A stretch of 64,000 nt of DNA from Synechococcus sp. RSCCF101 (GTDB taxonomy: Bacteria > Cyanobacteriota > Cyanobacteriia > PCC-6307 > Cyanobiaceae): assembly GCF_008807075.1 (NCBI RefSeq), contig NZ_CP035632.1, positions 372,001 through 436,000 on the forward strand, written 5' to 3'. A model generated the notes under the pieces. That model saw only the letters and a program-made list of their open reading frames with translations. It did not search any database and was not told the origin of the DNA. The position numbers were made by a program, and so were the translations under genes. This document shows positions 7,601-29,121 of the stretch, in pieces. Within the stretch, counting starts at the first letter, position 1, and the number at the start of each line of letters is the position of its first letter.

Positions 7601-7751
7601 ACACCAGGACGCCATAATCGATGCCCTGGATGCCCATCAAGCCATGAGCTCACAGGCTCTCAATAACCCTGATCTGCAAGCAAGGATCCTTGAGCTACTT
7701 CTCACTAACTATGGCCTCTGGGAGTCACTTAGAGACAAGCAGGCTGTGTAA
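4632..7751 (+). CDS. hsdR: Type I restriction-modification system, endonuclease/translocase subunit HsdR
   Basis: The motor and nuclease subunit, which translocates DNA by ATP hydrolysis and cuts unmodified DNA. I place the start at 4632, where ATG overlaps the previous stop (ATGA) as at the other joints of this operon; an upstream in-frame ATG at 4539 lies inside the previous gene. The 1039-residue protein has an N-terminal nuclease domain with a D...ELK motif (VATVELKTD near residue 155), a Walker A motif (HSAGSGKTN near 310), a DEAH-type box (ADEAHSSQTG near 423), and a C-terminal helical region. All expected parts are present and no internal stop is seen. It ends 19 bases before the convergent gene at 7771. 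Confidence 0.95.
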   Translation: MSLHTEAKFEDEICQYLGSNSWLYEKGDAASYDRSLALFPPDLISWVQDSHPEAWETLQKNHGSKAEETLLLRVRSQLDQLGTLDVLRHGIELLGLSKALKLAEFKPALGINPDILARYNANRLRVVRQVRYSLHNQNCIDLVLFLNGIPVATVELKTDNTQNVGNAVDQYRFDRLPQLKGKPPEPLLSFPSGAVVHFAVSNREVRMTTHLKGPATTFLPFNKGSDPGGKNCGGGNPVGDGHPTAYLWEEVWERESWLEILGRYCISERDKKKHIRRVLFPRYHQLAVTRQLQEAVREEGPGQKYLIQHSAGSGKTNSIAWTAHFFSELHDSNDRKVFDSVLVVSDRNVIDTQLQEALEAFERRKGVVASITSEEGSKSAKLAEALGGDKKVVVCTIQTFPFAIKEVRELAATQGKRFAVIADEAHSSQTGQAATKLKQVLSAAEAADLADGGDVDVEALLAAEMSDRVESGGITYVAFTATPKAKTLELFGRRPNPDEPSSETNLPEPFHVYSMRQAIEEGFILDVLQNYTSYKLAFRLAHEGQSVNETEVERNEALKKLMGWVKLHPHNIAQKVEIVVEHFRRFVWPLLEGRAKAMVVVGSRKEAVRWKLAMDKYITSRNYSLGTLVAFSGEVNDPESGPEPFSERGQSLNPKLKGDVREAFKGDEYQVLLVANKFQTGFDQPLLCGMYVDRKLAGIQAVQTLSRLNRCYPGKDTTYVVDFANDPKDVLAAFKTYFSTAELSAATDPNLILGLKAKLDSQNYYDEFEIERVMKVLLDPKSKQGLLEEAIEPVADRLVNMYKEARAAYRHALDINDESSAKESKDEMDSLLLFRADIGTYVRLYTFLSQIFDYGNTGIEKRALFFRSLLRALDFGRDRPGVDLSKVVLTHHQIRKLGETNLDLGIGETPKLDPSTGSGTGSVQDQQKAKLSEIISKLNDLFTGDLSDDDKIIYVGTVIRGKLLESKTLQQQAASNSKEQFANSPDLIKAHQDAIIDALDAHQAMSSQALNNPDLQARILELLLTNYGLWESLRDKQAV

Positions 7752-7770
7752 GCCCACGAGTCGCTTGTGT

Positions 7771-8595
7771 CTATTCCCTTATCCAGTCAGAGATGTTACT
7801 CAGAATACGGCGATACCCGCATAGAAACAGGTGTAGATTCTCTTTGGTCTTTGCTTCATCCCAGTCAATTGATCCTAGAAGTCTTATCCACATCATGACC
7901 TTCTGCTCCTCAGAATATTGGCTTAGGCTTCTAGGTAGCCCGCCGTTGCCTCCAGTTGCCTGATTATGCGTATGACCCTCCGTCACCCTGGTGGATTGTG
8001 TGTGAGTGATGGCTGCCTCTATCCCCCCTTCATCTATTTCTTGCTTTCCCTTCTCCTTGTTCAGAGCTGGAGTGAAGCTGTCATATCTCTGACACGTCTG
8101 ATGCCTTCTTGCACTCAGCGATTCAAACTTATCAGTAAAGAATCCACCAAGCCAGCCGCGTAAGGAGGAGACTGCCGGCATCTTCTTGTTTCGCTTGTAG
8201 TACTTATACACTGCCTCCTCCAGTGCGCCGCTCTGTGCCCGCTCGAGAATCGCCATATGCGTAACGCTCGCAGTCTCGGCCATCTCTAGCTGAAACTTGT
8301 CGGTGTACTCGCTATTAACCGTCCTGGAATACCATCTGAACGCGGCCTTATTATTGTCGATGCAGTCTCTGCTCCAACCCTCGCTCTCCATGGCCTTTGC
8401 TAAGGCGCGGTGCTCGTTGGAACGCTGTGGAAATGACCGCTGATAGTCGCTGATCTTCCCGATGATGATCATCCGTTCTCGCTGAGCTGTGCTCTTGGCT
8501 TGGCTGTAGGTCTCGACGTTCTTTTTGATCGAGGCAAGGAAGTTCAGAAATGTCTCATCCGTAGTGGTGTTGTCGTAGATCTCTAGAAGTGCCAT
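7771..8595 (-). CDS. Hypothetical protein
   Basis: A 274-residue protein with no family I recognise. It is mostly helical and charged. The N-terminal part carries a QRERMIIIGKISDYQR stretch, the middle is lysine/arginine rich, and the C-terminus (EEQKVMMWIRLLGSIDWDEAKTKENL) looks amphipathic. I prefer the ATG at 8595; an in-frame GTG at 8697 would add 34 residues. The gene converges with hsdR, leaving 19 bases between stops. Its place between a restriction operon and phage remains suggests an accessory or defence-related gene, but nothing in the sequence shows a function. Confidence 0.6.
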   Translation of the reverse strand: MALLEIYDNTTTDETFLNFLASIKKNVETYSQAKSTAQRERMIIIGKISDYQRSFPQRSNEHRALAKAMESEGWSRDCIDNNKAAFRWYSRTVNSEYTDKFQLEMAETASVTHMAILERAQSGALEEAVYKYYKRNKKMPAVSSLRGWLGGFFTDKFESLSARRHQTCQRYDSFTPALNKEKGKQEIDEGGIEAAITHTQSTRVTEGHTHNQATGGNGGLPRSLSQYSEEQKVMMWIRLLGSIDWDEAKTKENLHLFLCGYRRILSNISDWIRE

Positions 8596-8926
8596 TGGTC
8601 TATCTGCTGCCCCAGTTCCGTATCGATACGGAACTCGCAGGTGTAGGGCCCGCTCGGTAACGTACTGGGATTGAACTGCATACCGCCTGCTGGTCACTTG
8701 TCCTGACAGACGGCATGAGTAGTACCTGCCACTACTTTAGCGATAGCTATCATCGATTTGCTGTTGCCAGTAGTAATTACCGTGCGCTATTGCCCTGCAA
8801 GAACAAGTGGCGAGACTGTCGCACATTTAAGTCAGCCAGCATTACCGATGTGTGAATGCTCCACCTGCAATGGCTGTAATGGCCAATCAAGATGCTTCCA
8901 CCTTCCACTTTTGACATACTGCTTGG

Positions 8927-9280
8927 TCAGGAGACCCCGATGTCTTCAGTCGTGCGGCATGATCTCAATCCAGTTAATTCATAGCTATGGCTGGTTCCCT
9001 TCTTCGCATCCCAGGCCCGTCGGTGCACACCAGACTCCATAAGCTGTAGAACGAAACCGCAGCAAGCATCAAAGCAACAGACGAGACGACGTAGACGAGC
9101 ACTTACAGACCTCCTTTCAAGTTCAAGTTCAATCAGTTGTTGATCCAGGTATCGACGGAAGAGGTAGTCATTCCTCTCCCTCTCATCCCAGTACCTATTC
9201 CAGGCATCAAGGAACTCCATCTCATCCCCACACCTCTCAATGGCCGCATTGACATGGGCCATGAAGTCAGTTGTGTCCAT
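8927..9280 (-). CDS. Small phage-type hypothetical protein (117 aa)
   Basis: A short protein starting at an ATG at 9280 with a strong GAGGAGG ribosome binding site a few bases upstream. Residues 1-55 are acidic and helical (MDTTDFMAHVNAAIERCGDE...). The remainder is more basic and less protein-like, so the true end may have been lost. It overlaps the preceding minus-strand gene by 14 bases, the third link in a chain of coupled small genes behind the phage terminase tail. I do not recognise a family. Genes of this size after a terminase are common in T7-like cyanophages. Confidence 0.5.
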   Translation of the reverse strand: MDTTDFMAHVNAAIERCGDEMEFLDAWNRYWDERERNDYLFRRYLDQQLIELELERRSVSARLRRLVCCFDACCGFVLQLMESGVHRRAWDAKKGTSHSYELTGLRSCRTTEDIGVS

Positions 9281-9527
9281 GTGCCTCCTCCCAACGACCA
9301 CGCTCAAAGCCTGCGTAGAAGGCCTTCTTGACACAGGGCACTCCGTAGAAAACACTGTCATTCAGGTTCTTGTCCTTCTTGAACTCCTCCCAATCCATGG
9401 GTTCAGACGACACTGGCCTATCCACAGAAAGGACGTGCCAACCACCAGGCTGCTTAACGACCTCAGCCACCACATCACCTGGCTTCAGTTGGCTAATCCA
9501 GATCCCTTCAATCCTCTCCATCTCCAT
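9267..9527 (-). CDS. Small phage-type hypothetical protein (86 aa)
   Basis: An 86-residue protein that starts at the ATG at 9527, chosen because it overlaps the stop of the 33-residue ORF upstream as TGATG and has a GGAGG-like site before it. The sequence (MEMERIEGIWISQLKPGDVV...) looks like a compact beta-rich fold followed by a helical, acidic end. No family recognised. Its C-terminus overlaps the next gene. The unbroken chain of overlaps with the phage terminase tail suggests a late phage operon fragment rather than a host gene. Confidence 0.55.
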   Translation of the reverse strand: MEMERIEGIWISQLKPGDVVAEVVKQPGGWHVLSVDRPVSSEPMDWEEFKKDKNLNDSVFYGVPCVKKAFYAGFERGRWEEAHGHN

Positions 9528-9628
9528 CACTGAAGGCACCCTCCTGTCATCCCCACATACACAAGGAATGTGAGGCTGAGCACTGTCACTACTCTCCAGA
9601 TGAGTAGTCCTCTCTCCAGCTTAGACAT
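9527..9628 (-). CDS. 33-residue single-pass membrane peptide, phage late region
   Basis: A tiny ORF translated MSKLERGLLIWRVVTVLSLT and onward, with one hydrophobic segment (about residues 8-26) after a short positively charged start. Its ATG overlaps the terminase-tail stop (ATG inside GACTATGTCTAA) and its TGA overlaps the next ATG (TGATG). Both overlaps favour real, coupled translation. The size and topology fit small phage lysis or membrane peptides such as short holin-like proteins, but this is inference from layout only. Confidence 0.5.
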   Translation of the reverse strand: MSKLERGLLIWRVVTVLSLTFLVYVGMTGGCLQ

Positions 9629-9813
9629 AGTCAGGGTTCCTCCATGAATTGTTCTGTGTGTAATGGAAGTGAGCAGGCCGATGGTTCGGACCCTTCTTCG
9701 GTCTGGGTGTCTTGAGCTGCTTGAAGACTGGAGGAACCTGCTCTACCCACTCAGAGGGCAGCATCCGCCTCTCAAGAGAGGTGAGAAGGACATCATCCCG
9801 GTTGCGTCCCTTG
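9621..9813 (-). pseudogene. 3' tail of a phage gene cut off by the IS256 element
   Basis: On the minus strand an open frame runs from the edge of the IS to a TAA at 9621. It begins SKGRNRDDVLLTSLERRMLP and ends RNPDYV, about 63 residues, with clean codon structure and coupled translation to the next ORF. It has no start of its own. It may be the end of the terminase gene (a second exon behind the structured RNA and HNH gene) or the lost end of the HNH ORF or another late gene. I cannot decide by eye. Confidence 0.5.
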
Positions 9814-11244
9814 GAGTGGTGTAAATCCCGAGGCCTGTGATCTGATCGGAGATCAGTGATCAGGCAGCTGCAGCGAGTGCAGCTGTTGCCCGATCTTGGA
9901 CCGGTTCGCTGGTGTTGTCCAGCTTGGCCATCGACTGTTCAGAGAACACGCGACGGCCATCGAGCTGCCACTCCTCCTGCTGCTCCAGCAACAGTGCTCC
10001 CACCAGTCGGATGATCGCGGCGTCGTTCGGGAAGATGCCGACGACGCGGGTGCGGCGCTTGATCTCCTTGTTCAGCCGCTCGAGCGGATTGGTGCTCCAG
10101 ATCTTGCGCCAGTGCTCCGGCGGGAAGGCCCGGAACGCGAGGACGTCTTCCTTGGCCTGCTCCATCAGCGCCGCAGCAGCGGGGAATTTCTCGGTGAGCA
10201 TCGTCGTTACCTGCTCCCACTGCTCCCACTGCTGCCCTGCGGCCCGGGCCTCGGGCTGAACGAACACCGAGCGCAGGGCGGCAGCCACCATGTCCTGGCT
10301 TCCCTTGGGCACCTTGGCCAATAGGTTGCGGGCAAAGTGGACGCGGCAGCGCTGCCAGCTGCAGCCCTGGCAGCACCGGGCGATGGCCTTCTTGAGGCCG
10401 GCGTGGGCGTCGCTGATCACCAGTTGCACGCCTGAGAGCCCGCGCTCGCGCAGGCGGCGCAGGAAGGCGGTCCAGAACGTCTCATCCTCGCTGTCGCCCA
10501 CCTCGATCCCCAGCACCTCGCGCTGGCCGTTGCCGGTGATGCCGACCGCCACGATCACGGCTCTGGAGATCACCTGCCTGCGGGCCGGATCCCGGCCGTG
10601 AAGGTAGGTGGCATCGAGGTAGACGTACGGGTAGCGGCTGAACTCCAGAGGGCGCTGCAGGAAGGCCTGCACCTGGGTGTCGAGGCCCTGGCAGATGCGG
10701 CTGACCTCCGATTTGGAGACGCCGCTCTCACAGCCCAGCGCCACCACCAGCTCATCGACCTTGCGCGTCGAGACGCCCGAGACGTAGGCCTCCATCACCA
10801 CGGCCCAGAGGGCCCGATCCACGCGGCGGCGGGGTTCCAGCAGGGAGGGGAAGAAGCTGCCTGTGCGAAAGCGTGGGATGCGCAGCTGGATGTCGCCGGC
10901 TGGCGTTGCCAGAAGCCGGTCACGGCTGCCATTGCGATGGCCCCGACGCTCAGCTGTGCGCTGATGGCGATCGGCGCCAAGGGCAGCAGCGGCCTCGGCC
11001 TCGATCAGGGCCTGCAGTCCCTGGCGCACCAGTTCAGGGATCAGGTCACCGGCGGTGCCGCTGCCAAGCAGCTGCACCAGTTCCGCGGCGGCAGAATCAG
11101 AGATGGGCATGGTCTGGTCTCAGGACGGTGGTAGTGCTCCGACCAGGGTCACAGACCGGCCCACCCATTCCCCCGCAGGGGATCTGAGGACGAGACCGTC
11201 AGCACCGGCGTAGCCGGTGCTGCTTCTCAGGATTTACACCACTC
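9814..11244 (-). mobile_element. IS256-family insertion sequence
   Basis: About 1.43 kb bounded by near-identical inverted ends: GAGTGGTGTAAATCC at 9814-9828 and its reverse complement at 11230-11244. One transposase gene fills most of it. The element lies in a T7-like phage late region and separates the HNH ORF from the tail at 9621-9813. The flanks show no 8-9 bp direct repeat. Instead GCGTCCC occurs outside the left end and its complement outside the right end, so the ends may extend further or the locus has been rearranged. Confidence 0.85.
9860..11110 (-). CDS. IS256-family transposase
   Basis: A 416-residue DDE transposase of the Mutator/IS256 family. Typical landmarks are visible: an N-terminal helical region, the first Asp in YPYVYLDATYLHGR, the second Asp in LVISDAHAGLKKAI, a conserved CRVHFARN stretch, and the final Glu in STNPLERLNKEIKRRTRVVGIFPN. 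The frame is intact, so it could be active. The length is usual for the family (about 400 residues). It is GC-rich compared with the phage remains on each side, as expected for a recent insertion. Confidence 0.95.
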   Translation of the reverse strand: MPISDSAAAELVQLLGSGTAGDLIPELVRQGLQALIEAEAAAALGADRHQRTAERRGHRNGSRDRLLATPAGDIQLRIPRFRTGSFFPSLLEPRRRVDRALWAVVMEAYVSGVSTRKVDELVVALGCESGVSKSEVSRICQGLDTQVQAFLQRPLEFSRYPYVYLDATYLHGRDPARRQVISRAVIVAVGITGNGQREVLGIEVGDSEDETFWTAFLRRLRERGLSGVQLVISDAHAGLKKAIARCCQGCSWQRCRVHFARNLLAKVPKGSQDMVAAALRSVFVQPEARAAGQQWEQWEQVTTMLTEKFPAAAALMEQAKEDVLAFRAFPPEHWRKIWSTNPLERLNKEIKRRTRVVGIFPNDAAIIRLVGALLLEQQEEWQLDGRRVFSEQSMAKLDNTSEPVQDRATAALAAAA

Positions 11245-11648
11245 GGTGGGACGCCCCCATCATCCCTCACAACACCATCACTCTTGAAGATGAGCCTGTA
11301 GTAGAAGGACTCCACATGCTTGTGCCACTTCCCTAGCCTCAACTCATCCTCCATGTTCTCTCTCCTGGTTCCCCAGGCGAGGTTCTCAAGACGGTTGTCA
11401 CTACCGACACCATTCAGGTGACGGCCCTCATAGGCTGGGCTTGGCCTTAGACCTACGAAGGCAGACAACACTAAGCAGTGGACCTGGTAGGTCTTCTTGA
11501 GGATGTTGACCTGCTTGTAGCGTTTCTTGTAACCAGTCTTTTGTTGTCTGAGGACTCTAAGAGTCTTAGCGTTCCTCACGTTCCCAGCATCAGAGACCTC
11601 ATACCCAAGCTCAAAGGGGATAGGTCTCCACTGTTCTTCAGTTGTCAT
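11199..11648 (-). CDS. NUMOD4/HNH homing endonuclease, C-terminus replaced by IS sequence
   Basis: A free-standing or intron-borne homing endonuclease. The start at 11648 gives MTTEEQWRPIPFELGYEVSD, the NUMOD4 motif (residues 4-25), followed by an HNH domain (about 65-115) with HCLVLSAFVGLRP, RHLNGVGSDNRLENLAWGTRRENMED and the usual LGKWHK end. The conserved part is complete. The last 16 or so residues are read from the IS256 end, so the original C-terminus is lost. It lies just downstream of a highly structured non-coding segment and the terminase gene, the usual arrangement for a mobile intron or an intergenic homing gene. Confidence 0.85.
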   Translation of the reverse strand: MTTEEQWRPIPFELGYEVSDAGNVRNAKTLRVLRQQKTGYKKRYKQVNILKKTYQVHCLVLSAFVGLRPSPAYEGRHLNGVGSDNRLENLAWGTRRENMEDELRLGKWHKHVESFYYRLIFKSDGVVRDDGGVPPSGVNPEKQHRLRRC

Positions 11649-11699
11649 TGGAATGTACTGAATGTATCGGTACAATCGGCTGTGACTTAAATCACAAGC

Positions 11700-11985
11700 C
11701 TGTCATCGACCACTACTCAATCGGCAAACACCCCAATAGTGGGTGTTGTGTCGGTGATCCTGCCTCCTACCTTCGGTACTCGTTGGAGCCCGATGGTGGT
11801 CTCCCCCCTTCGGGACTCGCCCAACGGGCAGGGAACAGCCCTTGTCATTGTTGTCTTATTTAAGGACTGGTCTTCCTGAGAGAGGCCCTATCTCCCTCTC
11901 AGCTACTAGCCAGTCCAGTTGTCTTAGTCAGATGGACCCACGTCTGAGCGATGGGTCTCTTCCGTTACGGTACACTTCTCAGATC
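11700..11985 (-). ncRNA. Candidate structured RNA (possible group I intron) after the phage terminase
   Basis: This segment has no open frame but holds several perfect stems. 11727-11733 pairs with 11741-11747; 11759-11764 with 11827-11832, stacked on 11781-11786 with 11821-11826; inside these are CCCGA/TCGGG (11789-11814) and a TACC-TTC-GGTA hairpin. 11864-11870 pairs with 11910-11916, enclosing 11876-11882 with 11896-11902; 11935-11940 pairs with 11952-11957. Nested multi-branch pairing next to an HNH endonuclease gene suggests a self-splicing intron, but I could not identify the conserved P7 core with certainty. The strand is assumed from the neighbouring genes. Confidence 0.45.
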
Positions 11986-11989
11986 CCAG

Positions 11990-13205
11990 TCAGGGCCTGG
12001 CTTTTGTCCAGGTCTCAATCCGACCCGATCCACTGAGGCGTCTCTGGGCTGTTCTGAGGGGGATGCCCATGGCCAGAGCGTCTACAGCAGTCTGGGGCTC
12101 CTCAAGGAAGAGGTCCATCATAATGCTGAACTCCTCTGCCTTCCGTTGGGCCTCTGCCTTGTGAGCTGAGATGGCCAGGGCGTCGATGAACCACTGGACC
12201 CCTTGGGCCAGGCAGTCGGCTCTGTCGTCATGCTTGACGGCTCCCTTCTCCCGACACATGCGTGTCAGTTGGTAGCTGAGCATGTAGGCAAGTCTTCTTT
12301 CTGGGGCTTCCTCTGGGTTGGAGTGGTAATCCCACTCAATTACCTTGGGGTCAATGACCAGCTTGTGCTGGTTCAGGATGGGCTCCAGGGCGTCGATGAT
12401 CCGCTCCTCCTTACGGACAGAGGCACGGACCTCCTCGACCCCTGCATGAACCTGCATCTGGACCATGTGCCGCTTGAGCAGCTCCCCGAACATGCCATCC
12501 CCGAAGTTGGACTCGTAGAGGATGGTGGTGGCCTTGTACTTCTTGGCCATGTTGAGCATGGCGACCAGGGTGGCATCGCTGTAGCCGTCCCTCCAGGCAT
12601 CCATGGCCCTCAGGAAGATGTAGCCGTTGCACTGGCTCAGGACACAGGCTGTGGCCTCGTCCTTGCCTCGACCGGAGGGGTCGATACTCAGGATGGTCTC
12701 TGTGTAGTCCCTGATCCCCTCCTCGACGTACATCGGGCTGTACCAGCGGTCCCCAGGAAGGCCTACAGCGGGCAGATCCTTCAACAGGTATCTTGGGGTC
12801 CGACGACCACTGATAGCGGGGTGCACAGGTCTCTGAGAGGCCAGTGACGACGAAATCGGAGAACCGCAGTGGGAACTTCTCCGCATCCGACAGGGTGGTG
12901 TTGAGCTGGAACTGGAGTTGGAAGTTGGAGCGGCCCATGTGGCACTCCCTCTCCATCAACTCCCGATCACTGAAGCGTGAGTCAGCGGGGGAACCAGCTT
13001 TTGCTCCCTTGTTCAGATCTTCCTCAATCTCAGGGGCCAGCCTTCCCTCGTACAGGATGATGTCATTGGGGTAGCGGCTAGGCCATTCATAGGCCTCATA
13101 GCCTTGTTCCTCCAGGTCGCGGTAGACAGAGGACATGATTTGGGGGCTTTCCCAGGTAGAGCAACCGCCTAGTGTGCTGTTGGGGGAGGACAGACTCGTC
13201 TTCAA
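11990..13205 (-). pseudogene. T7-like phage terminase large subunit, truncated and frameshifted
   Basis: Remains of the DNA-packaging motor of a T7-like cyanophage. Two overlapping frames join into one protein. The first (13205 to about 12795) includes YEAYEWPSRYPNDI, FQLQFQLNTTLSDAEKFPLR and PRYQWSSDP. The second (about 12800 to 11990) includes the nuclease-domain motifs LSIDPSGRGKDEA, YESNFGDGMFGELLKRH and the HDDRADCLAQGVQ motif. These are hallmark T7 gp19 sequences. The frame change lies near 12790-12800. The N-terminal ATPase half (about 240 residues with Walker A) is missing, as the homology stops at about 13205. It is followed by structured RNA and a homing endonuclease. Confidence 0.85.
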
Positions 13206-13398
13206 GTCATCACGAAGGCCGCTTCAACAAGTAAATGAAAACGCCTGAGGCCTGGAGGAATCTCGCACCATCAGGTTCTCAGTCTATGGTGGAACGTAAC
13301 TCAACTAGACAGAGGTGAACAGCACTATTCTGCCGTGAGAAGCCATGATAGATGAATGCTCATACCATTGAGTATCTGCGCTGTGTATTCGCAGTCTA

Positions 13399-14472
13399 TC
13401 AGCTATCTTCTGGTACTCCGCTCTCCCAAGCCTCACTATCCTCCTGCTCTGGCTGTTCGCTAGCTGCTTCACTGTGCGAAACAACCGAAAGGAGGCGCTC
13501 CCCTTGTGCTAACAGGTGATCATAAGTCATTATCCTGATCCCAGATAGTCTCGAGTTAAGTCCGTGCAAAGCCTTGTGCTCCTCTGTGCTCCAACTGACT
13601 GACCTGCAAATGACGATTGTTGCTCGTGGGTGGTATGCAACGATCTCAGGGTGATCCCGCATTCCTTGTTCGGCTACAGAGTGAAGGACATCCATATACC
13701 GATGGCACTGCCCTATGGCCTTTGAGACTTCGGAGGAGAAGTAGTAGCTTCTATGGCTCTCATCACGAATTAAGACAGCCATGTCTAGCCGCTTCAGTTC
13801 AGCAATATCCCTGTACCCTGCGATCACGTTTGATAGCATCATATCAAGCTGATCATGCGGACTGATCGCCCTAACATCCTCTGGAGATACAACATAAGCA
13901 TTGCCAAGTGCCCAAGGATGTTGTTCAATCCACCGTTGGTATGTCGCTTCACTATTCTCTTCCTGCTCAAGGTAACCTCTAAGGGCCATGACGGCAGATT
14001 GCATTTCTCTAAGCCTTATTGCGCCTTTCAAAGCCGAGACAAGTTCGTCTGATTGGTCACAGGTCCCAATATGAGATACGACATCCTTGCTCCCAAGTAC
14101 CGTTGCAAGGGCCCCTGCCAAATACTCGGGATCGTATTCTCCAAGATCCGCCACTCCTTCGTCAACCCGAACTACAATGTAGTTTCCGTCTTCTCGGTTG
14201 GCTATCTGTAAGTGACTTGTTAGTGCTGGAAGCAGTCTCCGTGCCGCGGCTTCTTGCAGCGACACCGACTTCTCTTCTCTTAGAATCCATTCGACGGGGG
14301 GCTTGCCCTTTCTGTATGTCTGTATCTTTACTGTCATCTCCTGATGGTCGGAGTGCTGAATAAAGAATGGCACGAAAACAATTCGTGAACTTCTACACTC
14401 GTGATGAACAACCTGATCCCCATAGCTTAGATTTCCAGAGCTAGCCTCTCTACGACTGATGTTCTCTACCAT
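13399..14472 (-). CDS. sduA: Shedu-type anti-phage nuclease (SduA, DUF4263)
   Basis: A 357-residue protein matching the single-gene Shedu defence system. The C-terminal nuclease domain shows the PD-(D/E)XK pattern typical of DUF4263: YQRWIEQHPWALGN (about 178-191), Asp210 in HDQLDMML, Glu225-x-Lys227 in IAELKRLDM, and the Gln/Tyr motif of SKAIGQCHRYMD (Gln255, Tyr259), then a PRATIVICR strand and a GLNSRLSGIRIMTYDHLL end. All presumed catalytic residues are present. The N-terminal 160 residues are the variable sensor part. Known family role: nuclease activity that stops phage infection. It stands alone as a transcription unit between phage remains and membrane-protein genes. Confidence 0.88.
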   Translation of the reverse strand: MVENISRREASSGNLSYGDQVVHHECRSSRIVFVPFFIQHSDHQEMTVKIQTYRKGKPPVEWILREEKSVSLQEAAARRLLPALTSHLQIANREDGNYIVVRVDEGVADLGEYDPEYLAGALATVLGSKDVVSHIGTCDQSDELVSALKGAIRLREMQSAVMALRGYLEQEENSEATYQRWIEQHPWALGNAYVVSPEDVRAISPHDQLDMMLSNVIAGYRDIAELKRLDMAVLIRDESHRSYYFSSEVSKAIGQCHRYMDVLHSVAEQGMRDHPEIVAYHPRATIVICRSVSWSTEEHKALHGLNSRLSGIRIMTYDHLLAQGERLLSVVSHSEAASEQPEQEDSEAWESGVPEDS

Positions 14473-14511
14473 GGTTGATAGCCTGACTGGGCATAGATTA
14501 GTCCTTATCTC

Positions 14512-14580
14512 TCACCATGTCGTTCAGCGAAGCAGCTCCTTCCCGGAGCGCTGCTGAGGTGAATGCCATTCTGGGCAGAG
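14512..14580 (-). pseudogene. End fragment of an IS481-family transposase
   Basis: On the minus strand this reads CPEWHSPQQRSGKELLR and a stop, the same C-terminal ending as the IS481 fragment at 52560 (GWRSPQQRLRELLC and stop). The flanking bases (CTCACCA-GT-GTTCAGC) are also shared. Only about 70 bases survive. Confidence 0.6.
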
Positions 14581-14895
14581 TAATTTCTCAGGTGGTCAGA
14601 AATCGACTCTGAGAGTCTAGTGATCAATCCCAGTCCTCCAGAACCTTGGCGATACCGCATTAAGTCCTTACGACAAGTTCAATAACACCAGAACGACTCG
14701 CGAAACCACAGACGGTGTCGTTACCTGGTTTGCTACTAACGCTTTGATCTATGCTAATATCAATCGGAGCCCCTATAGCTAACATCCACTGATTGATATT
14801 GATCGACTTGCTTTGTTAACGGCCACCTCCTGTATCAGCTTCCGCCCCCCTTCTCGCCAAACTCTTCCTTCGACTCCAGGTTACGGGTTACTCAC

Positions 14896-15567
14896 TTATT
14901 CATTTGCGGGAGTCTCTCTTTTTCTTTTCAACGACCTATATCGAGCCCGAGGTGTTGGTTCGTTCTGACTACACTGCTTGTGCAGATAGTCCTGGCTACC
15001 TCCAAGGGCTTCAGCAGCTACAGCAGTAAGTGCCCTGCGGAGATCGTAGTAACTCGTATACAAGGATTGCTGGGTTTCGTCTTTATGCATTGAGAGGCCA
15101 GAACTTAGATCCGCTTTCGTAACCCGCACGTCTTGCATGAAAGCATCTACTTCTGATGCAACGCATGGGCTAAGCTGGGTTATCTCTGAGGAGGCAATCT
15201 CAAGATTCCTGGAAATGCGTTCCAATGTCTTTTTGTCAGACTCGCTTACAGGGTTCTGTGTATCCACTCCCTTATATGAGATCTGAAGCAACGTTGCCAT
15301 CTCTTTTTCGAGCTTATCGCGCTTTCGAAGAATCGTATTAATATCGTCTCTTCGAATCGTGTCTATCTCAAGTTGTCGCTTCTGAACAGTTTCAGCCACG
15401 CATTGGGTAATCGCCAGCAGAGCAGCAGCAATGACACCGATGACAGTCTTGTCAACAAGTCTATCGACAAGATGATTGCGACTGGTGTCTTTGGGCTGAA
15501 TCACATAGCGTCCGAACTTCATACCAGCAGTCAGATAGTACCTAAGCCTGTGCTGGCGTAGCACCAC
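14896..15567 (-). CDS. Membrane-anchored coiled-coil protein of unknown function
   Basis: A 223-residue protein with one hydrophobic segment near residues 40-58 (TVIGVIAAALLAITQCVAE) followed by a long charged helical region (about 60-200) with heptad-like spacing (RDDINTILRKRDKLEKEMATL). It ends with a basic tail rich in Arg and Lys. It overlaps the upstream gene by 26 bases, so the two are probably co-expressed. I do not recognise a family. The placement between a Shedu gene and a patatin-like phospholipase makes a defence role possible but unproven. Confidence 0.65.
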   Translation of the reverse strand: MVLRQHRLRYYLTAGMKFGRYVIQPKDTSRNHLVDRLVDKTVIGVIAAALLAITQCVAETVQKRQLEIDTIRRDDINTILRKRDKLEKEMATLLQISYKGVDTQNPVSESDKKTLERISRNLEIASSEITQLSPCVASEVDAFMQDVRVTKADLSSGLSMHKDETQQSLYTSYYDLRRALTAVAAEALGGSQDYLHKQCSQNEPTPRARYRSLKRKRETPANE

Positions 15568-16291
15568 AGTGTCGATCGGTTGAGAAAAGCCACTCTGTCA
15601 CCCTATCTCTTGAGTCTGATATGGTGAGCCTCCAGCGAGTGGCATTGCCGGGATAAAACAAGTCCGCCCCGAAGTGGTCAATGTATCCAAACGGAGAGTC
15701 GCTCTGCTGGATTGTTGTCTTGTTGCTATTTCCCTTGTATTTCTCCCCTGTAAAGTCTATCTTGGCTGTGAGATTTCCTTTGGGGGGATTGATAACCTCA
15801 ACCCATACAGCAACTGCCCTGCGATTCTCGAGATGGCTCCACCTATTGGTTTCTACGGTGCTATCTTGATAGTCTTTCAATCGGCTAAACAGCTCTTCTC
15901 CCAACGGCAGACAAGAATCTATAGCGGTATACTCAGGACTGGGTCCTAGCGTTACAGTCGGTGTTGCTTGTACTACACCTCGCTGCTTAGACAGCCACTG
16001 AAAATCACTGTAATTCAATGGTTTGCAACGCATTCCTGGTACGTATCCGTTTGGACGACATATATCCCTCTCCCTTGCGAAGATTACCTGCATTCTGACT
16101 TTAAGCGGTGGAGCAGACGAGCTCAGTGATGACTGAGACCTCAATAGCCGGTCTCCCATCGATTGACGTAGTCCACCAATCTGATTCTGCTTCATTCCTC
16201 CGCCAATAGAGAGTGCACCAAATCCGCAAAGTGTGATAGATGTGAGCAAAGCCAACGATGACCCTATAACAAGTGTCTTCGGAGTAACCAT
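15542..16291 (-). CDS. Exported or membrane-anchored protein of unknown function
   Basis: A 249-residue protein that begins with a hydrophobic signal anchor (residues 7-30, TLVIGSSLALLTSITLCGFG). The remainder looks extracytoplasmic and beta-rich, with four or more cysteines (DICRPNGYVPGMRCKPL, DSCLPLG, DRHCGATP) that could form disulfides and a middle segment AVWVEVINPPKGNLTAKIDF. It is the first gene of a two-gene unit and overlaps the next by 26 bases. No family recognised. I infer that the pair forms an envelope complex. Confidence 0.65.
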   Translation of the reverse strand: MVTPKTLVIGSSLALLTSITLCGFGALSIGGGMKQNQIGGLRQSMGDRLLRSQSSLSSSAPPLKVRMQVIFARERDICRPNGYVPGMRCKPLNYSDFQWLSKQRGVVQATPTVTLGPSPEYTAIDSCLPLGEELFSRLKDYQDSTVETNRWSHLENRRAVAVWVEVINPPKGNLTAKIDFTGEKYKGNSNKTTIQQSDSPFGYIDHFGADLFYPGNATRWRLTISDSRDRVTEWLFSTDRHCGATPAQA

Positions 16292-16818
16292 TCTGGCAAG
16301 AATCGACAGTTGTGGATTTGGACTAAGTTTCGCCTAGACTACACTTGGCCGTACCGTGCCTTAATAAGTCTGGGGGTGAAGGTCTGCTGGAAATCCAGCC
16401 GATACAGCCAAGTCGGAGTATGAGGACGCAGGTGAGTTACCATTGACGTGTTCTATTGACGAGCACCCTATTCTGGCTTGGATCAAGTAAATTGCAACTC
16501 GCTCTACATCCACGTGGGCGAAACTGCTACAACACCGCCCCTGACTACCAACAAGCCTGTTGACGTTAGAATTGAATAGTCTGGGATCTGTAGAGCGCTG
16601 GTCATTTACATGTAAGTTGTCTCAATACCTACACCCAATAGCTGACGGGAATAAGGATACATCAAGTGCTGTGGAGCGAGAAGTGAATAGGGAGTCAGGG
16701 AGTCTAAGCGCCAGGATTAGTTGCCTAGCCTGAATCAATGCTTATATGACAGCGTTTCCAGAGAAAATCTCAGATTCACTATGTTAACCCAGATCGTCCT
16801 AAGTCCTAGAGTTATGCT
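16292..16818. other. Intergenic region without recognised gene
   Basis: About 530 bases between two minus-strand genes. No open frame of useful length or clear repeat is seen. It should hold the promoter of the gene starting at 16291 and the transcript end of the patatin-like gene. Confidence 0.5.
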
Positions 16819-17841
16819 CTAACCATGCCGCTTTGGCATGCCAGTGGATCTTTCAATGCTGTCTAGAGATGGCCCAGAATAGCGGCTAGTCAGGAGAGCA
16901 ACGGTGCTATCACCGTATTGCTCAAACCAGTAGTCGCCCATCCTTTTTAGCTTCAGAATATTTGACCGACTGATGTCATCCATTGCGTCATCTGGAGGCT
17001 CTTGCATCCAACTCTTCTTCTCCATATCAGAATCGACTCTGATGTAAGTCCCCTTACGGGCCAGAGTTATTGCCTGATACGCAACGATACGTTCGTCGGT
17101 CAAAAGATCCAATATCTGGCCCCTTACAAACCAACCAATGGCACCCCAGTTCCGAGATTCGGGTCCATTTATCTTTCGTGAGCGGTAACCTGTCCCAACC
17201 GACAAGATTCGCATTTCGTCAATTGAGGTGTCCCACTCACGCTTTGCTTCTGCTATAGCGCACATAGTCGGATTGTTGGCGACCACGCCACCGTCAACAA
17301 GCCAGACTTCTTTCCTTTCATTCCCTATAGAAAGCCTTCTGGTAGGGAAGTAAGTCGGTGCAGCGCTTGAAGCGTCTGCAATGCGATAAGACAGCAGTTC
17401 CCTATAAGCCGTATCGGTTGATTTGATGACCATCGGCTGGCGTTTCTCGATAGCGTAGGTGACAACCAAGACATGCTTGCCTGAAGCTACATCTCTCAAT
17501 CTGGCCTCTCTCATCGCATTCTTCAGCACCCTTGTCTTGTTCTTTGACTCATATTTCGGCGCATTAATCCCGTCAATTTCCAAGAAGCCTCGATTGTCGG
17601 TGAAGATTGCTCTTGCATTCTCGTGATTGTACAGGTTGCAAATCTCATTCACCGTTAGCTTCGTAGTGGCTAGCGCGAGGGCGATTATGCTTCCAGTGCT
17701 TGTTCCTGCGTAGAAGTCAACATAGTCTCTAATAGACTTTCCGTATTCCCTCTTAAGTCTGTCCTCAACACGTGAGAGGAACTGCGCTGATGCAGCTCCT
17801 CTAATTCCTCCTCCATCCAATGAGAGGATCATCTTGTTCAT
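16819..17841 (-). CDS. Patatin-like phospholipase (CapV-type effector candidate)
   Basis: A 340-residue patatin-like lipid hydrolase. The oxyanion-hole motif DGGGIRG is at residues 9-15, the nucleophile elbow GTSTG at 46-50 (Ser48) and the catalytic Asp in LVDGG at Asp183, giving the complete Ser-Asp dyad. The layout matches bacterial patatins, including the CapV effectors of CBASS that degrade membranes after a cyclic nucleotide signal. No cyclic nucleotide synthase (CD-NTase) or Cap2/Cap3 gene is visible nearby, so it is either a stand-alone lipase or an effector parted from its sensor. It stands alone on the minus strand in a defence-rich island. Confidence 0.85.
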   Translation of the reverse strand: MNKMILSLDGGGIRGAASAQFLSRVEDRLKREYGKSIRDYVDFYAGTSTGSIIALALATTKLTVNEICNLYNHENARAIFTDNRGFLEIDGINAPKYESKNKTRVLKNAMREARLRDVASGKHVLVVTYAIEKRQPMVIKSTDTAYRELLSYRIADASSAAPTYFPTRRLSIGNERKEVWLVDGGVVANNPTMCAIAEAKREWDTSIDEMRILSVGTGYRSRKINGPESRNWGAIGWFVRGQILDLLTDERIVAYQAITLARKGTYIRVDSDMEKKSWMQEPPDDAMDDISRSNILKLKRMGDYWFEQYGDSTVALLTSRYSGPSLDSIERSTGMPKRHG

Positions 17842-18517: not shown

Positions 18518-18694
18518 CGAGCAACCAGCAGCAGCCTGCATCACTCCCTTGCTGCCCACCTCCTTGAGCGGGGACTGGACATCCGCACCATCCAGGAGCA
18601 GCTGGGTCACACTGATGTGATGACCACCATGCTCTCAACACATCTTCTCAATTCTGGTCCTCTGGGTGTCTCGAGCCCGACAGACCTTCTGTAG
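18518..18694 (+). pseudogene. 3' remnant of an integron-type tyrosine recombinase (IntI/XerC-like)
   Basis: A 58-codon open stretch reads [20 protein letters not shown], then [38 protein letters not shown] and a stop. This follows the C-terminal signature of IntI enzymes, RATSHxxRHSFATHLLERG...DIRTVQ.LLGH.DVSTTM.YTH followed by a G.GV.SP.D ending. The second catalytic Arg (HxxR) is replaced by His and the nucleophilic Tyr (YTH) by Ser, and an in-frame TAG lies just upstream, so it is dead. The following attC-like site supports an integron origin. It points the same way as the cassette, which is rarer than the divergent layout. Confidence 0.75.
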
Positions 18695-18909
18695 CGCAAC
18701 GAACAGTGCGATTGGCGAGCTCTAATAAGATGATGGTTGCGGTCGATGAACGATGAGTGTTGCCTTCGAATCAGCGTCATGGCCTTGTGTCAAGCCGAGG
18801 CTACTTCTCATTCGCGGTCAGCATCAGCATCTCTTGTCTGCATAGCGGATCAGCCTAATAATTGTTGCTTCGTCCGTGTTTATACGGTTGTTCTAGTTGC
18901 CTAGGATGC

Positions 18910-19012
18910 TCGCACGGCTAAGCAACAACAAGCTCGAGCCGACACCGCCTGCTAGCCGAACGCCGTTCGTCACGAACGGCTGTGCGGCTCAGCTAGTAGT
19001 TAGGATGATGGG
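18910..19012 (+). repeat. attC-like recombination site before the HEPN gene
   Basis: The segment folds like an integron attC site. The inner arms AGCTCGAGCCGACAC (18931-18945) and GTGCGGCTCAGCT (18982-18994) are complementary apart from two extra bases on one arm, the usual extrahelical-base pattern. Between them is a perfect GCCGTTCGT-C-ACGAACGGC hairpin. The outer R' box is GTTAGGA (18999-19005); the expected R'' box on the left is degenerate (GGCTAAGCAAC). The gene start at 19019 lies 12 bases past the core site, as usual for a cassette. Confidence 0.6.
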
Positions 19013-19018
19013 TACAAG

Positions 19019-20248
19019 ATGGAAATCCTTTCCAAGGTCAACGAGATCATTGTCCTTGCAGAGGTTGGTATCAGACCTGATGAGCAGTCTGGAAGAAGCA
19101 AGTTCTTTGGAATGGGGCCAAGCTCAATCTCATTCTCTGGAGAAAACCTTGATAAGTACTACGCTGCCTTGCTAGCGGCCTATAGCGAAAACAAGGAAGT
19201 CGAAAAATCGTATACTCCCAAAACATTTGAATCGAGGCTTATTGATTGCTTCAGGCCTATTATTCTACAGGACAGTCATGCCTCGGCGAATGATGTCAAA
19301 CAGTTCATTGCATCTCTCCTCTCGGCGCCACTTAAAGAGTTTTCAGTATCCAGAGAGATATTTGGCATTAAAGTTGACAACCTGAATGCACCAGTAAAGC
19401 TGGGCGGATTTACGGTGCATTCGCCAACCAGTCATCCTGAACTAATTCAGTCAAGGAGAAGATTTCTAGACGCAGATGATGACGATCTCTGGCTTGGCCA
19501 TGAACCCTCATATCTTATCGAGTGGAGAGCTCATGCTAGGGAGCAAGCAAAAGCAGTAGCACATGCAGATAGGCAGTTTGAAGTCTTTGAGAACTTTCTC
19601 CGTTTTATGCTAGGAATCTCATCGCGATTTGAAGTCGGTGTTCTTAACTATCAAGGTCTTAGAAGGGCAAGGGCGTATGTATATAGCACAGACGGAGCTG
19701 CGGGTACTTCAGCATCGAACCACGGAGCTTTTGAAGATCTTCCAATATGCGATCCTTGGTTAACAAATCAAAACAATGGCAATCAATATGCATGGTGTCT
19801 CACAAGTCTGCTAAGCCCAAACAAGTTCCAGCAGAGGCTGCGTCTAGCAATCGAGTGGATTGGGCAGGCAATATCTGAAGCAGCCCCACAAAGCTCATTC
19901 CTGAAGGCGGCCATCTCTCTCGAAATTATTTTTACGCATAATGAGAAAAGCATTATCAATCCATCGATCTTAAGTCAGATATCCGAGGGTTCCGCCCTAT
20001 TGCTTGGATCAAATGTGCATGAACGTCTTCATTTGGAGAAAGAGGCTAAAAGGCTCTATAGCCTTCGCTCTTCTATCGTTCACTCAGGGAACACACACAT
20101 AAGCAACTCTGACCGAAAGAAAATGATTTCCTTGGCCAGTTCAGTGGCACGCAAGTTGCTAATCTGCGAGGAGCTTAAGCAGCTAGCCTCTGTAGAGCAG
20201 TTGTATCAACTGACTAAAGAGGCCAAATATTCTTGCAGAGCATTTTAA
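19019..20248 (+). CDS. Apea-like HEPN-domain protein, probable integron cassette gene
   Basis: A 409-residue protein. The C-terminal part (about residues 290-400) matches the Apea-like HEPN domain: SSFLKAAISLEIIFTH, an ALLLGSN segment, and the HEPN active-site motif RxxxxH as RSSIVH near residue 349, followed by SGNTHISNSD. HEPN domains with this motif are metal-independent RNases used in abortive infection and toxin systems. The N-terminal 280 residues resemble the sensor or binding region of Apea-type proteins. The gene begins 12 bases after the attC-like core and its 3' side carries TCCTAAC, the exact complement of the 5' GTTAGGA box, as expected for a mobile cassette. Codon use is AT-rich compared with the core genome. 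Confidence 0.75.
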   Translation: MEILSKVNEIIVLAEVGIRPDEQSGRSKFFGMGPSSISFSGENLDKYYAALLAAYSENKEVEKSYTPKTFESRLIDCFRPIILQDSHASANDVKQFIASLLSAPLKEFSVSREIFGIKVDNLNAPVKLGGFTVHSPTSHPELIQSRRRFLDADDDDLWLGHEPSYLIEWRAHAREQAKAVAHADRQFEVFENFLRFMLGISSRFEVGVLNYQGLRRARAYVYSTDGAAGTSASNHGAFEDLPICDPWLTNQNNGNQYAWCLTSLLSPNKFQQRLRLAIEWIGQAISEAAPQSSFLKAAISLEIIFTHNEKSIINPSILSQISEGSALLLGSNVHERLHLEKEAKRLYSLRSSIVHSGNTHISNSDRKKMISLASSVARKLLICEELKQLASVEQLYQLTKEAKYSCRAF

Positions 20249-20325
20249 ATGCTGCCAGCAGCTTGGCAAAGTGCATTATAATTCTATAACTGATTCGCTA
20301 ATCTATACTTGACGCTTGGCTCCTG

Positions 20326-20388
20326 CAATCCTAACAAGTCCCTCGAGTGGACAGTCCACCATGAGATTTCTACTCCGCTCATGGTTGA
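20326..20388 (+). repeat. Partial attC-like sequence after the HEPN gene
   Basis: TCCTAACAAG near 20329-20338 resembles an attC R'' box and complements the GTTAGGA box at 18999. It is followed by CTCGAGTGGACA, like the CTCGAGCCGACA arm of the first site, an inner GTGGAC-A-GTCCAC hairpin, and an 8-bp stem ACCATGAG/CTCATGGT. A matching right arm and R' box are not seen, so the site is incomplete or decayed. Confidence 0.4.
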
Positions 20389-20881
20389 TGGCCTGCTACT
20401 CAGGGGCAGCGTTCTGCGCAAGGAGACTGAAAGAGTGAAACGGAGCACACGCGTTCTCCTGAGTGTCCTTGGCACGTCGCATCTGCTGGTGGCGATCGCT
20501 CTCCTGCCCGTCTCTACCTTTCTCGGCTTCTTCACCATTCCGGTCGTCGTTCCCGCGCTCATCTGGCTAGTGGTCCTGGGGGTGCGCCTCATGCGCCCGA
20601 ACACGACCGTTCGCACTACACTACGCGTGACACATTGTCTACTTGCCCCGCTGGAAGCCCTGCTGGTGGTCTACGGCATCCACTGCCTTCAGGCCGCACG
20701 GCGCAGCGCCGAGTTTGGGGGAGGACTGCTGGGTGCTTCTGGCCTCATCCCAATTGTGATAGGAGTTCTTGCAGGAAGCTTGTCGGTGGCGTCTCTGTGC
20801 GTCGCCTTCTCCGGTGAAGTGCCCAGACCAACAGAAGCCGGCCAAAGCTTCGGTTGCGACTCGGGAGCGCCTCTAGGCTGA
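20381..20881 (+). CDS. Small multi-pass membrane protein of unknown function
   Basis: A 166-residue protein (start at the ATG at 20381; an upstream TTG at 20309 would add 24 residues but reads through the attC-like sequence). It has four hydrophobic segments: two in VLLSVLGTSHLLVAIALL...PVVVPALIWLVVLGV, one in HCLLAPLEALLVVYGIHCL and one in LIPIVIGVLAGSLSVASLCVAF. The N-terminus is basic, suggesting a cytoplasmic start. No family recognised. It follows the HEPN gene in the same direction and may be a second cassette; GTTAGAG occurs just after the stop. Confidence 0.5.
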   Translation: MVDGLLLRGSVLRKETERVKRSTRVLLSVLGTSHLLVAIALLPVSTFLGFFTIPVVVPALIWLVVLGVRLMRPNTTVRTTLRVTHCLLAPLEALLVVYGIHCLQAARRSAEFGGGLLGASGLIPIVIGVLAGSLSVASLCVAFSGEVPRPTEAGQSFGCDSGAPLG

Positions 20882-22032
20882 CGTTAGAGAGATTACGATG
20901 ACCTGCCGATTCTGAGTTTCCCGCCCTTCCGGAGAACCGATTGTGAGATTTCTTTCTGCTCTACTCTTCCTGTGTTTGCAGACAATCTCGGTGCAGGCAC
21001 AAGACATCAGCCAGGCTACTATGATGTAGTCAGGAAGCAATGAATCTCCTGAGTCTGAGTTGGTAACTCTGGGTTCTGGCCTAAGCTGATTATTTGCTGG
21101 AATCCGAGTACATTGTGCGGTCTGCGCTGAGTCTTGCGATCAGCTAGATGTTTTGCATCACCATGTTGCTCAGCAGTGCAGCCCTCCGAAGTGCTGCATA
21201 CGTAAATGCCAGAACAGGGATGAGTTCCTCTTTGGACGGTAGTCTAATGCCGGTTTGCTTGCCAGCCAGAGGTGCCGCTCTTGTGAGTTCCCTACACCAT
21301 GGCTCAGGCCCCTAGCCTATGCCGCATGATCTTCGGCAGCGACAGTCTTCCACTCAGCTTGCCCGGATTCAGCTCCCTTCACTCGTTCAGCTAAACCTCT
21401 CCTACCTGGCAACACAACCAACCTGGGCTGTGCGCGGAGCAGGTGCTTCTGACTGGCTGGATCCAGAAGTGCCCTGACGCTTTGGCCACGCTGATCTTGG
21501 TACTCCTTCAGATCCAGGTCATCTGGAACGGCACTGCATTCACGCTTGCTGCCGTCGCGAAGCAGGATGACGGGAGCCATGGTTGGGATCGGATTGTGGC
21601 TGAGTACAACCCATCAAGCCACACCAATCAAGCCTTGTCGACCTACTCCTCAGAGAACGTGCGCCTAACGACTCTGTCTGTGCTCAAGAGGTGGTTAACA
21701 GTCAACTGGGTATGAGTTAACTGTAGGTCGATGTCGACCCAACAATCCAGATGGCACACCTCAAGGCATCGAGAGCGCAATCTGCTTCTGATTCATTGGT
21801 CACGCCTGTTCTGCAGATGGCGCGCCCGGCCCAACACGTAAACACCCAACCCGCCTGCCAAACCACCGGCAATCACAGAGGGGAGCAGATCTTTGAGCCA
21901 ATCGGGCACGAGTGGGCCTCCGAAGCGGACGTGGGTTCACCCGTCGTAGCTGCTCGTCAGGGGTGAGCAAGCGCTGGGCGGTAAAGCTGAGTTGCAGATG
22001 CGGTCTGGTCAGACAGTCCCCACTGCTACATC
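20882..22032. other. Long region without clear genes
   Basis: About 1.15 kb in which the open frames are short and overlapping and none has a family signature. The one item worth noting is a possible 38-residue peptide on the minus strand at 21793-21909. The sequence looks like decayed accessory DNA. Confidence 0.4.
21793..21909 (-). CDS. Possible 38-residue membrane peptide
   Basis: Starts at a GTG at 21909 with GGAGG seven bases upstream. The translation has an amphipathic start (VPDWLKDLLP) and one glycine-rich hydrophobic segment (SVIAGGLAGGLGVYVLG), then a basic tail. The pattern resembles small hydrophobic toxins or membrane peptides, but the size makes the call uncertain. Confidence 0.3.
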   Translation of the reverse strand: MPDWLKDLLPSVIAGGLAGGLGVYVLGRARHLQNRRDQ

Positions 22033-23304: not shown

Positions 23305-24534
23305 TTATCTCATCCATTCTTCCATCACTGCCCAAACCTTCATGGCTTCTCTCCTTAGCGCTGTTGCTGTCACCTCCCCGTATGTCCTGCTCATCTCGCT
23401 GCCTGCTCTGTGACCCAAGTACAGTTCACTCATGATCTCGTCTGCACCAGCCTCTCTCGCCGCTGTCTTCCATCCGTGCCGTAGGGAGTGTGCACTGAGT
23501 CTGGGGTTTACCTGTTTGAGCTGTTTCGCAATGCTGAAGCCTGATGCCCATCCCCCTCTCGCTCTCCCCTTGTTTCCCAGGCAAACAAAGTCTTCGGGGG
23601 TTGGGATGACACGATTGCTTGTTGATGTCTTTGGCTTCCACCCATCCCGAGGCCCGATGCGAATGGCGTGATTCTCCTCATCGTAATCCTCGGGCTGCCT
23701 CGTCAGAAGCTCGTTGAGTCTCATTCCTGTGAAGGCTAGCCACCGTATTGTTGTCGCATATCTCGGGTCCATCTCCTTCAGGGCGAAGCCAATCCTCCTG
23801 TAGTCCTCCTTGGTTGGCGAGTACAGGTGTCCCTTGTCCCTCGTTGTGTAGTCGACTTGCGAGAATGGATTCTCTATGTCTGGGCATTCACCTGTTTTCT
23901 TCAGGCTCGTCAGAACACCTGATAGCAGTGCGCAGCTTGTCTCGATGCTGTTGGCTGAGAGCTTCTTCTTGTCTCGTAACCCCTTGATGTATGCCCTAAC
24001 ATGCTGTGGCTCAAGCCGAGCTGGTCTGTTTGGTCCTCCCCAGGAGGCCGGCTCTGGTTCCAGTTCTGGTTCCGCTCGTATAGGCACCAGTTCCCTCATG
24101 TACTGAATCGCCTTGGCGACCTTCTCGCCCCAGGCCTCAGAGAGATCTGCTCCCGTCCGATGCCGGTGCCTCTCGCGGTGAATCTCCACAGCTTCCTCCC
24201 AGGTCAGTTCGGGCGGCCGCAGTGCGGATGGTTTGGTCAACTCCTCTGTGTACCCCCTGACCTCTCGTTCGGCGACCTCCCCGTCCTCCGTGACCACAGG
24301 TTCGGACCACGTGATCGGCTGGTGGTACCTCTGCTTTGTTACGAGACTTGAATCCAGAGGGTTCTGCTGCTCAAGAGCCTCCATCGCGGCAGGCCACCGC
24401 TTCAGGGCTGTTGTGTGGTCCGTCGTTCGCAGAGAGACCGTGAAGCGTCTCCTGTCCCCTGGCCTCATCCACTGGGCGTACCACACGTCACTGCCTGACC
24501 TGAGCCTTCTGGGCCCCACGTAGCGCCTTCCCAT
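23305..24534 (-). CDS. Phage-type tyrosine integrase
   Basis: A 409-residue site-specific recombinase. After an N-terminal Arg-rich arm (MGRRYVGPRRLRSGSDVWYA) and a SAM-like core-binding domain, the catalytic domain shows Arg in FTGMRLNELL, a Lys-containing GWKPKTS strand, H-x-x-R in SAHSLRHGWKTAA, His in LYLGHRAG and the nucleophile Tyr in SRTYGE. All key residues are present, so it may be active. I chose ATG 24534; an in-frame TTG at 24573 is also possible. The gene begins directly after the mrpG stop, marking a boundary between the low-GC island and the GC-rich core. It presumably mediated integration of some or all of the island; the att sites are not identified. Confidence 0.9.
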   Translation of the reverse strand: MGRRYVGPRRLRSGSDVWYAQWMRPGDRRRFTVSLRTTDHTTALKRWPAAMEALEQQNPLDSSLVTKQRYHQPITWSEPVVTEDGEVAEREVRGYTEELTKPSALRPPELTWEEAVEIHRERHRHRTGADLSEAWGEKVAKAIQYMRELVPIRAEPELEPEPASWGGPNRPARLEPQHVRAYIKGLRDKKKLSANSIETSCALLSGVLTSLKKTGECPDIENPFSQVDYTTRDKGHLYSPTKEDYRRIGFALKEMDPRYATTIRWLAFTGMRLNELLTRQPEDYDEENHAIRIGPRDGWKPKTSTSNRVIPTPEDFVCLGNKGRARGGWASGFSIAKQLKQVNPRLSAHSLRHGWKTAAREAGADEIMSELYLGHRAGSEMSRTYGEVTATALRREAMKVWAVMEEWMR

Positions 24535-24576
24535 CTGCCTGCCCCTGACCCCATAGAGCAAACGATAGAGCAACCT

Positions 24577-28890: not shown

Positions 28891-29121
28891 GGAAGGGCTC
28901 CATGCGTGCTCCGGCCCCCGTTGCCTGACCGGAATCGACCTGCGGACCGAGGAACTCCTCTGCCTCAACGTGCCCTCAATTTAAGAGTGCGGTAGCGGTT
29001 GCTACTGTTTCGCGCGCTACGGATAACCACCCGCCGGGGTCGGCATGCCACCCCATTGACAGGGCCGGGCGGGCGGACGCTCTGGTCCAGCTCGGTATCG
29101 TGATGGCGTCGAGATGGGGTC

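Follow-up and report, generated by a model that had tools for sequence, protein, structure and literature searches.

Introduction

The integrons that most closely resemble the locus described here are the chromosomal integrons of the Treponema type, which have an atypical layout with intI transcribed towards attI and whose integrase genes form a clade that includes those of Synechococcus, Kuenenia, Chlorobium and Blastopirellula (PMC3607928). Cyanobacteria are already among the published integron hosts (PMC2426708, PMC8618304, PMC8352920), and an attC covariance model for the Cyanobacteria exists (PMC8352920). Decay of the integrase is likewise on record: in the work of Nemergut et al. (2008) on pseudo-integrons, about a third of the surveyed intI genes were pseudogenes (PMC2426708). 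With respect to cargo, an integron-cassette HEPN family (PDB 3jrt) was described by Anantharaman et al. (2013) as a proposed stress or dormancy RNase (PMC3710099). Gene-less (ORF-less) cassettes with promoter activity are known in Vibrio (PMC11014356), their promoter being, as far as that account goes, not reliably callable from sequence, and gene-less promoter cassettes of oral Treponema are reported in a 2019 study (Sci Rep 2019) as relayed by PMC8876359. Each of these elements, from cyanobacterial integrons and intI pseudogenes to gene-less promoter cassettes and HEPN cargo in integrons, has been described before.

We are highly confident that a locus within the window (the whole 64-kb stretch of DNA that was analysed) is a degenerate chromosomal integron in the inverted ("Treponema-type") layout usual in its picocyanobacterial family, carrying an intact HEPN cassette. 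As in the Treponema-type integrons, intI runs towards attI and the cassettes, and the attC cores are of the GTTRRRY type; unlike them, the window has a dead intI remnant of 58 codons and two recognisable cassettes only. The decay of intI is of a kind common among pseudo-integrons (PMC2426708), although here the gene is reduced to its C-terminus. The cargo is, as in the 3jrt family, a HEPN protein with an Rx4-6H motif, but differs from that family in its 409 aa and long N-terminal region. The first cassette resembles those of Vibrio and oral Treponema in lacking a gene, in having a normal attC and in standing ahead of gene cassettes, and differs from them in its lineage, in that 17 of 19 copies come first at attI, and in that its promoter role is putative. 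The features of the locus are as follows.

18518-18694, forward strand: IntI pseudogene, C-terminal 58 codons plus stop (TIGR02249 profile, DNA homology, tree)
18844-18870, forward strand: decayed attI, AGCGGATCAGCCTAATAATT|GTTGCTT (position, partial sequence match, paralogue boundary)
18865-18999, forward strand: gene-less cassette of 135 bp, first in the array (end complementarity; copies at attI in relatives)
18920-19005, forward strand: attC1, with R'' AAGCAAC, L'' AGCT[C]GAGCCG[A]CAC, L' GTGCGGCTCAGCT and R' GTTAGGA (grammar 15.0; covariance model 19.6 bits)
19000-20411, forward strand: HEPN gene cassette of 1412 bp, first bases TTAGGAT and last base the G of GTTCTGC (delimited by attC1 and attC2)
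19019-20248, forward strand: HEPN-domain protein of 409 aa, intact, probable RNase (ORF, Rx4H motif, homologues)
20329-20417, forward strand: attC2, with R'' TCCTAAC, L'' CCT[C]GAGTGG[A]CAG, L' CTGCTACTCAGG and R' GTTCTGC (covariance model 58.1 bits; grammar 14.8)

Integrons in the Cyanobiaceae

A search with the TIGR02249 profile in 400 sampled genomes of the family (Cyanobiaceae) gave a match at 1e-12 in 95 of them, distributed over 17 of 59 genera, and in 68 of the 400 an intI gene exceeded the curated cut-off, which indicates that integrons are common in the family. Together with the presence of Cyanobacteria on the published host lists, the latter count contradicts the view taken in the preliminary description that integrons are rare in this lineage. 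In the intact-integron loci of relatives, each of the 44 strong attC sites (score at least 14) shares the strand of intI and is situated 3' of that gene, and the window has the same layout, with intI pointing towards the cassettes. Since integrons are widespread in the family and their attI and attC sites recognisable, its cassette pool could be mined with one covariance model.

attC Sites and Cassette Boundaries

Sites were sought with a structural grammar, consisting of AAC, a short spacer, an arm of 3-5, an extrahelical base, 6 pairs, a second extrahelical base, further pairs, a loop, an arm, a spacer and GTT. With 14 as the minimum score, the scan of either strand of the 64 kb yielded exactly two sites in all, 18920-19005 and 20329-20417; first-order shuffled sequence amounting to 6 x 64 kb contained none. 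Because this grammar was written after both window sites and those of relatives had been seen by eye, a covariance model provides the stricter test; its training set comprised 41 attC sites from relatives and excluded the window, and 12 of 16 pairs in the model show double changes. Within the 64-kb window the model matched attC2 with 58.1 bits (E=1.7e-12) and attC1 with 19.6 bits (E=0.0075), with no further match at E<=10, while genome-wide attC2 was the sole match at E<=1 (E=7.8e-11) and attC1 was absent at that threshold. Both sites carry both extrahelical bases at the correct spacing (6 nt apart in attC1), and single-stranded DNA folding of the bottom strands against shuffles gave z=-5.4 for attC1 and z=-3.0 for attC2.

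The attC-like hairpin of the preliminary description, with complementary arms (18931-18945 and 18982-18994) and ending in GTTAGGA at 18999-19005, is present as stated, and the covariance model matches inside the interval 18910-19012 where it had been placed; the site is real and belongs to the upstream gene-less cassette. The second attC (20329-20417) had been overlooked and extends past the end of the segment then delimited.

Integrons cut between the G and the TT of the core, and a cassette opens with bases complementary to the R'' box in its own attC. Here, GTTAGGAT (18999-19006) and ATCCTAAC (20328-20335) are exact complements over 8 nt, each occurring once in the 64 kb, so that the HEPN cassette runs from 19000 to 20411; likewise, GTTGCTT (18864) and the R'' box AAGCAAC (18920) are complementary, which sets the gene-less cassette at 18865-18999. 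Both boundaries thus fall at G|TT with R'' complementing the cassette start. An expression of the form RYYYAAC...GTTRRRY that required complementarity between R'' and R' missed both window sites, because R'' and the following R' belong to different cassettes in an array, and the structural grammar was used in its place.

Behind attC2 lies a 190-aa membrane-protein-like ORF (20309-20881), possibly a third cassette, which GTTAGAG at 20883 could end; the attC expected behind it at 20826-20889 reached just 2.6 bits in the covariance model and is not claimed. A recurring 54-bp hairpin (CAACTTCGGATAAGATCGTGGCTGCGCACGATCTATCCATAATCGTT) was seen near the integrons of three genomes (L031 6351-6404, L039 5587-5640, L044 5094-5147 (-)); it may represent a further type of short attC or belong to an insertion element.

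The Gene-less Cassette

Copies of the gene-less cassette at attI are 90% identical in genome G120 and 89% identical in G098, and altogether the cassette was found in 19 places, in 14 of the 400 family genomes and 5 genera, plus one short fragment; its named carriers are Synechococcus sp. CS-1332, 'Microcystis elabens' FACHB-917 and a Kiruna MAG. In 17 of the 19 places the upstream bases, read by eye, resemble the attI end; the copy in locus L051 is placed after an attC, and that in L059 is the remaining place without a clear attI end. An IntI end lies 172-183 bp upstream in six places (the window, G120, G127, G131, G058 and G207) and farther upstream in two, with a transposase insertion between in L048 (G098); no recognisable IntI end was found near the remaining places. 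This occurrence at attI across five genera is a mildly new observation.

The same regularity, a position directly at attI in nearly every place together with conservation across the five genera, would also be expected if 18864-19005 were a fixed part of this attI type and no separate cassette. We consider this improbable: at this attI GTT different DNA is found in the majority of the family's intact integrons, the L051 copy follows an attC instead, and the ends of the 135-bp unit complement each other in the manner of a cassette. The end stems also covary (CCGTG/CACGG to CCGCG/CGCGG), and the ends GTTGCTT/AAGCAAC pair.

An invariant T-A-n-n-n-T (TAnnnT) in the body of the cassette could represent a -10 element; scanning for consensus promoters gave a single match (18834-18862), which precedes the cassette, and none within it. 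One may speculate that a dedicated gene-less "starter" cassette is common to picocyanobacterial integrons, being either placed at attI or retained there, that it would supply the array promoter otherwise lacking in the inverted layout, and that the HEPN cassette behind it would stay expressed after the death of the integrase, a scenario that we put forward tentatively and regard as rather doubtful.

The Integrase Remnant and attI

The dead IntI-like C-terminus at 18518-18694 named in the preliminary description is borne out by the profile searches. Its 58 codons (18518-18691), followed by a TAG stop, match positions 259-314 of 315 of the NCBIfam profile integrase_gron (TIGR02249) with 73.7 bits (1.6e-20), well ahead of XerD (42.8 bits) and XerC (39.1 bits); the integrase_gron match spans the tail behind the catalytic tyrosine, whereas the XerC and XerD matches leave this tail uncovered. 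In a search of the whole genome with the same profile the remnant was recovered at E=1.9e-19, with the profile end at 18688, and no functional intI is retained. Aligned as DNA with intact intI genes from relatives, the remnant shows 68.9-75.7% identity, and it is 72% identical to the intact IntI of locus L036. In a tree of the 58 residues it groups with IntI, as proposed earlier, and apart from three non-IntI tyrosine recombinases, with a support (85/88) that is modest because just 58 residues exist; the contrast is limited to three such recombinases since no gene in the 13 genomes searched exceeded the XerD cut-off.

Active integrons have intact catalytic residues in intI. In the remnant, compared by eye with relatives, the HxxR motif reads SxxH (SSLHHS vs CHTFRHS) and the position of the nucleophilic Tyr is a Ser (MLSTH vs MIYTH), and the N-terminal part of the gene is gone, together with the region of the IntI-specific insert (patch) upstream of box II. 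Given this loss and the decay of the catalytic residues, the local enzyme is no longer able to move cassettes.

Relatives with intact integrons have the start of the first cassette at a GTT 175-190 bp past the IntI profile end, preceded by sequences such as CGGACCCGCCTAATCAGC (CGGACCCGCCTAATCAGC|GTT). In the window the attI GTT lies 176 bp past the profile end, and the crossover falls between G18864 and T18865. The same genome carries another decayed intI end with attI at position 2,298,104 (G000:C1:2298104-2298490, about 10104-10490 of locus L067); over 376 bp this copy shares 65% identity with the window stretch, and the homology ends at the GTT crossover, as expected if two related attI sites carry different DNA behind them. 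No attC was detected near this second copy. Its 3' flank resembles window positions 20895-21004 again, which suggests from sequence likeness that the two decayed loci may be an old duplication.

These results bear on a different account of the locus, namely a CALIN, an integrase-less attC cluster produced by off-target insertion by an IntI elsewhere and lying beside an unrelated tyrosine-recombinase scrap. That the genome has no functional intI and that just two attC sites are present would suit such a cluster, but both the profile and DNA homology identify the scrap as IntI, its distance to the attI crossover is that of intact integrons, and the intI-attI stretch is common to the second decayed copy. 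The synteny of intI, attI and cassettes already largely refutes this account, and we judge it very unlikely. Among the points against reading the locus as a degenerate integron are that the E-value of attC1 is modest and that only two attC sites are left.

The HEPN Cassette

The mobile-cassette geometry proposed in the preliminary description is upheld by the two attC sites, the exact complementarity of the ends, the attI boundary and the synteny with the intact integrons of relatives. The HEPN gene does follow the core, its ATG standing 13 and not 12 bases past it, and TCCTAAC is found after its stop at 20329-20335. An ordinary chromosomal gene flanked by hairpins that arose by chance or act as terminators would fit the G690 homologue without detected attC sites, but has a negligible probability here, given two canonical attC sites with correctly spaced extrahelical bases, of which shuffled sequence contained none, and the unique exact complementarity of the ends, and is refuted already by the 58-bit match of attC2.

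The protein carries the Rx4H motif RSSIVH (R350, H355), whose R and H are invariant in an alignment of five sequences. Its best relative, full-length with 43% identity, comes from G690, a member of another cyanobacterial family, and no attC was detected in the locus of that homologue; a protein from a Priestia plasmid, annotated HEPN, shares 28.6% identity with the cassette protein over 99%. Pfam gave no match at E<=1 and NCBIfam none, and a weak PADLOC match to DzbB (0.0022) covers residues 340-378, over the HEPN motif, so that the label "Apea-like" used earlier finds no backing in these profiles. Among solved HEPN chains in the PDB no sequence match was better than E=0.16, and a single-sequence AlphaFold model, made without an alignment, has a mean pLDDT of 37.5, too low for the helical HEPN fold to be read from it. 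No homologue was found in the phage collection, no DNA match in the plasmid collection and no relative in scans of virus and genome contigs with the protein. The same HEPN gene was not found in other attC contexts among relatives, so its movement as a cassette elsewhere is unseen.

The Rx4H motif indicates that the gene most likely encodes an RNase, which would limit phage or respond to stress. Three genes in the window bear on the first of these roles:

4539-7751, forward strand: Type I restriction subunit
13399-14472, reverse strand: SduA/DUF4263 protein (PADLOC 2.1e-141)
16819-17841, reverse strand: CBASS-type patatin phospholipase

The proximity of these genes makes a defence role plausible as a prediction from the neighborhood. 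This defence neighborhood spans positions 4539-17841 of the window.

Proposed History and Surroundings of the Locus

We suggest that two cassettes entered attI by the action of an IntI that was still active, the gene-less one of 135 bp and behind it the one-gene HEPN cassette. The substrate of each insertion would have been the bottom strand of attC in its folded form, cut between the G and the TT of the GTT core. The greater part of intI would subsequently have been lost and the remaining catalytic residues would have decayed, while the HEPN gene would have been kept intact after this loss, with the gene-less cassette in front of it possibly providing a promoter. The locus would then capture the decay of an integron midway in a photosynthetic lineage, the capturing enzyme being gone and the HEPN gene intact in a defence neighborhood. 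An intact HEPN cassette in such surroundings agrees with the idea of integrons as suppliers of defence genes to genomes.

Two further elements were observed downstream: a phage-type tyrosine integrase unrelated to IntI (23305-24573, reverse strand; phrog_1, 5.1e-31), and a Glutamine-II riboswitch (28909-28973, reverse strand) with 38.6 bits against a gathering score of 33.
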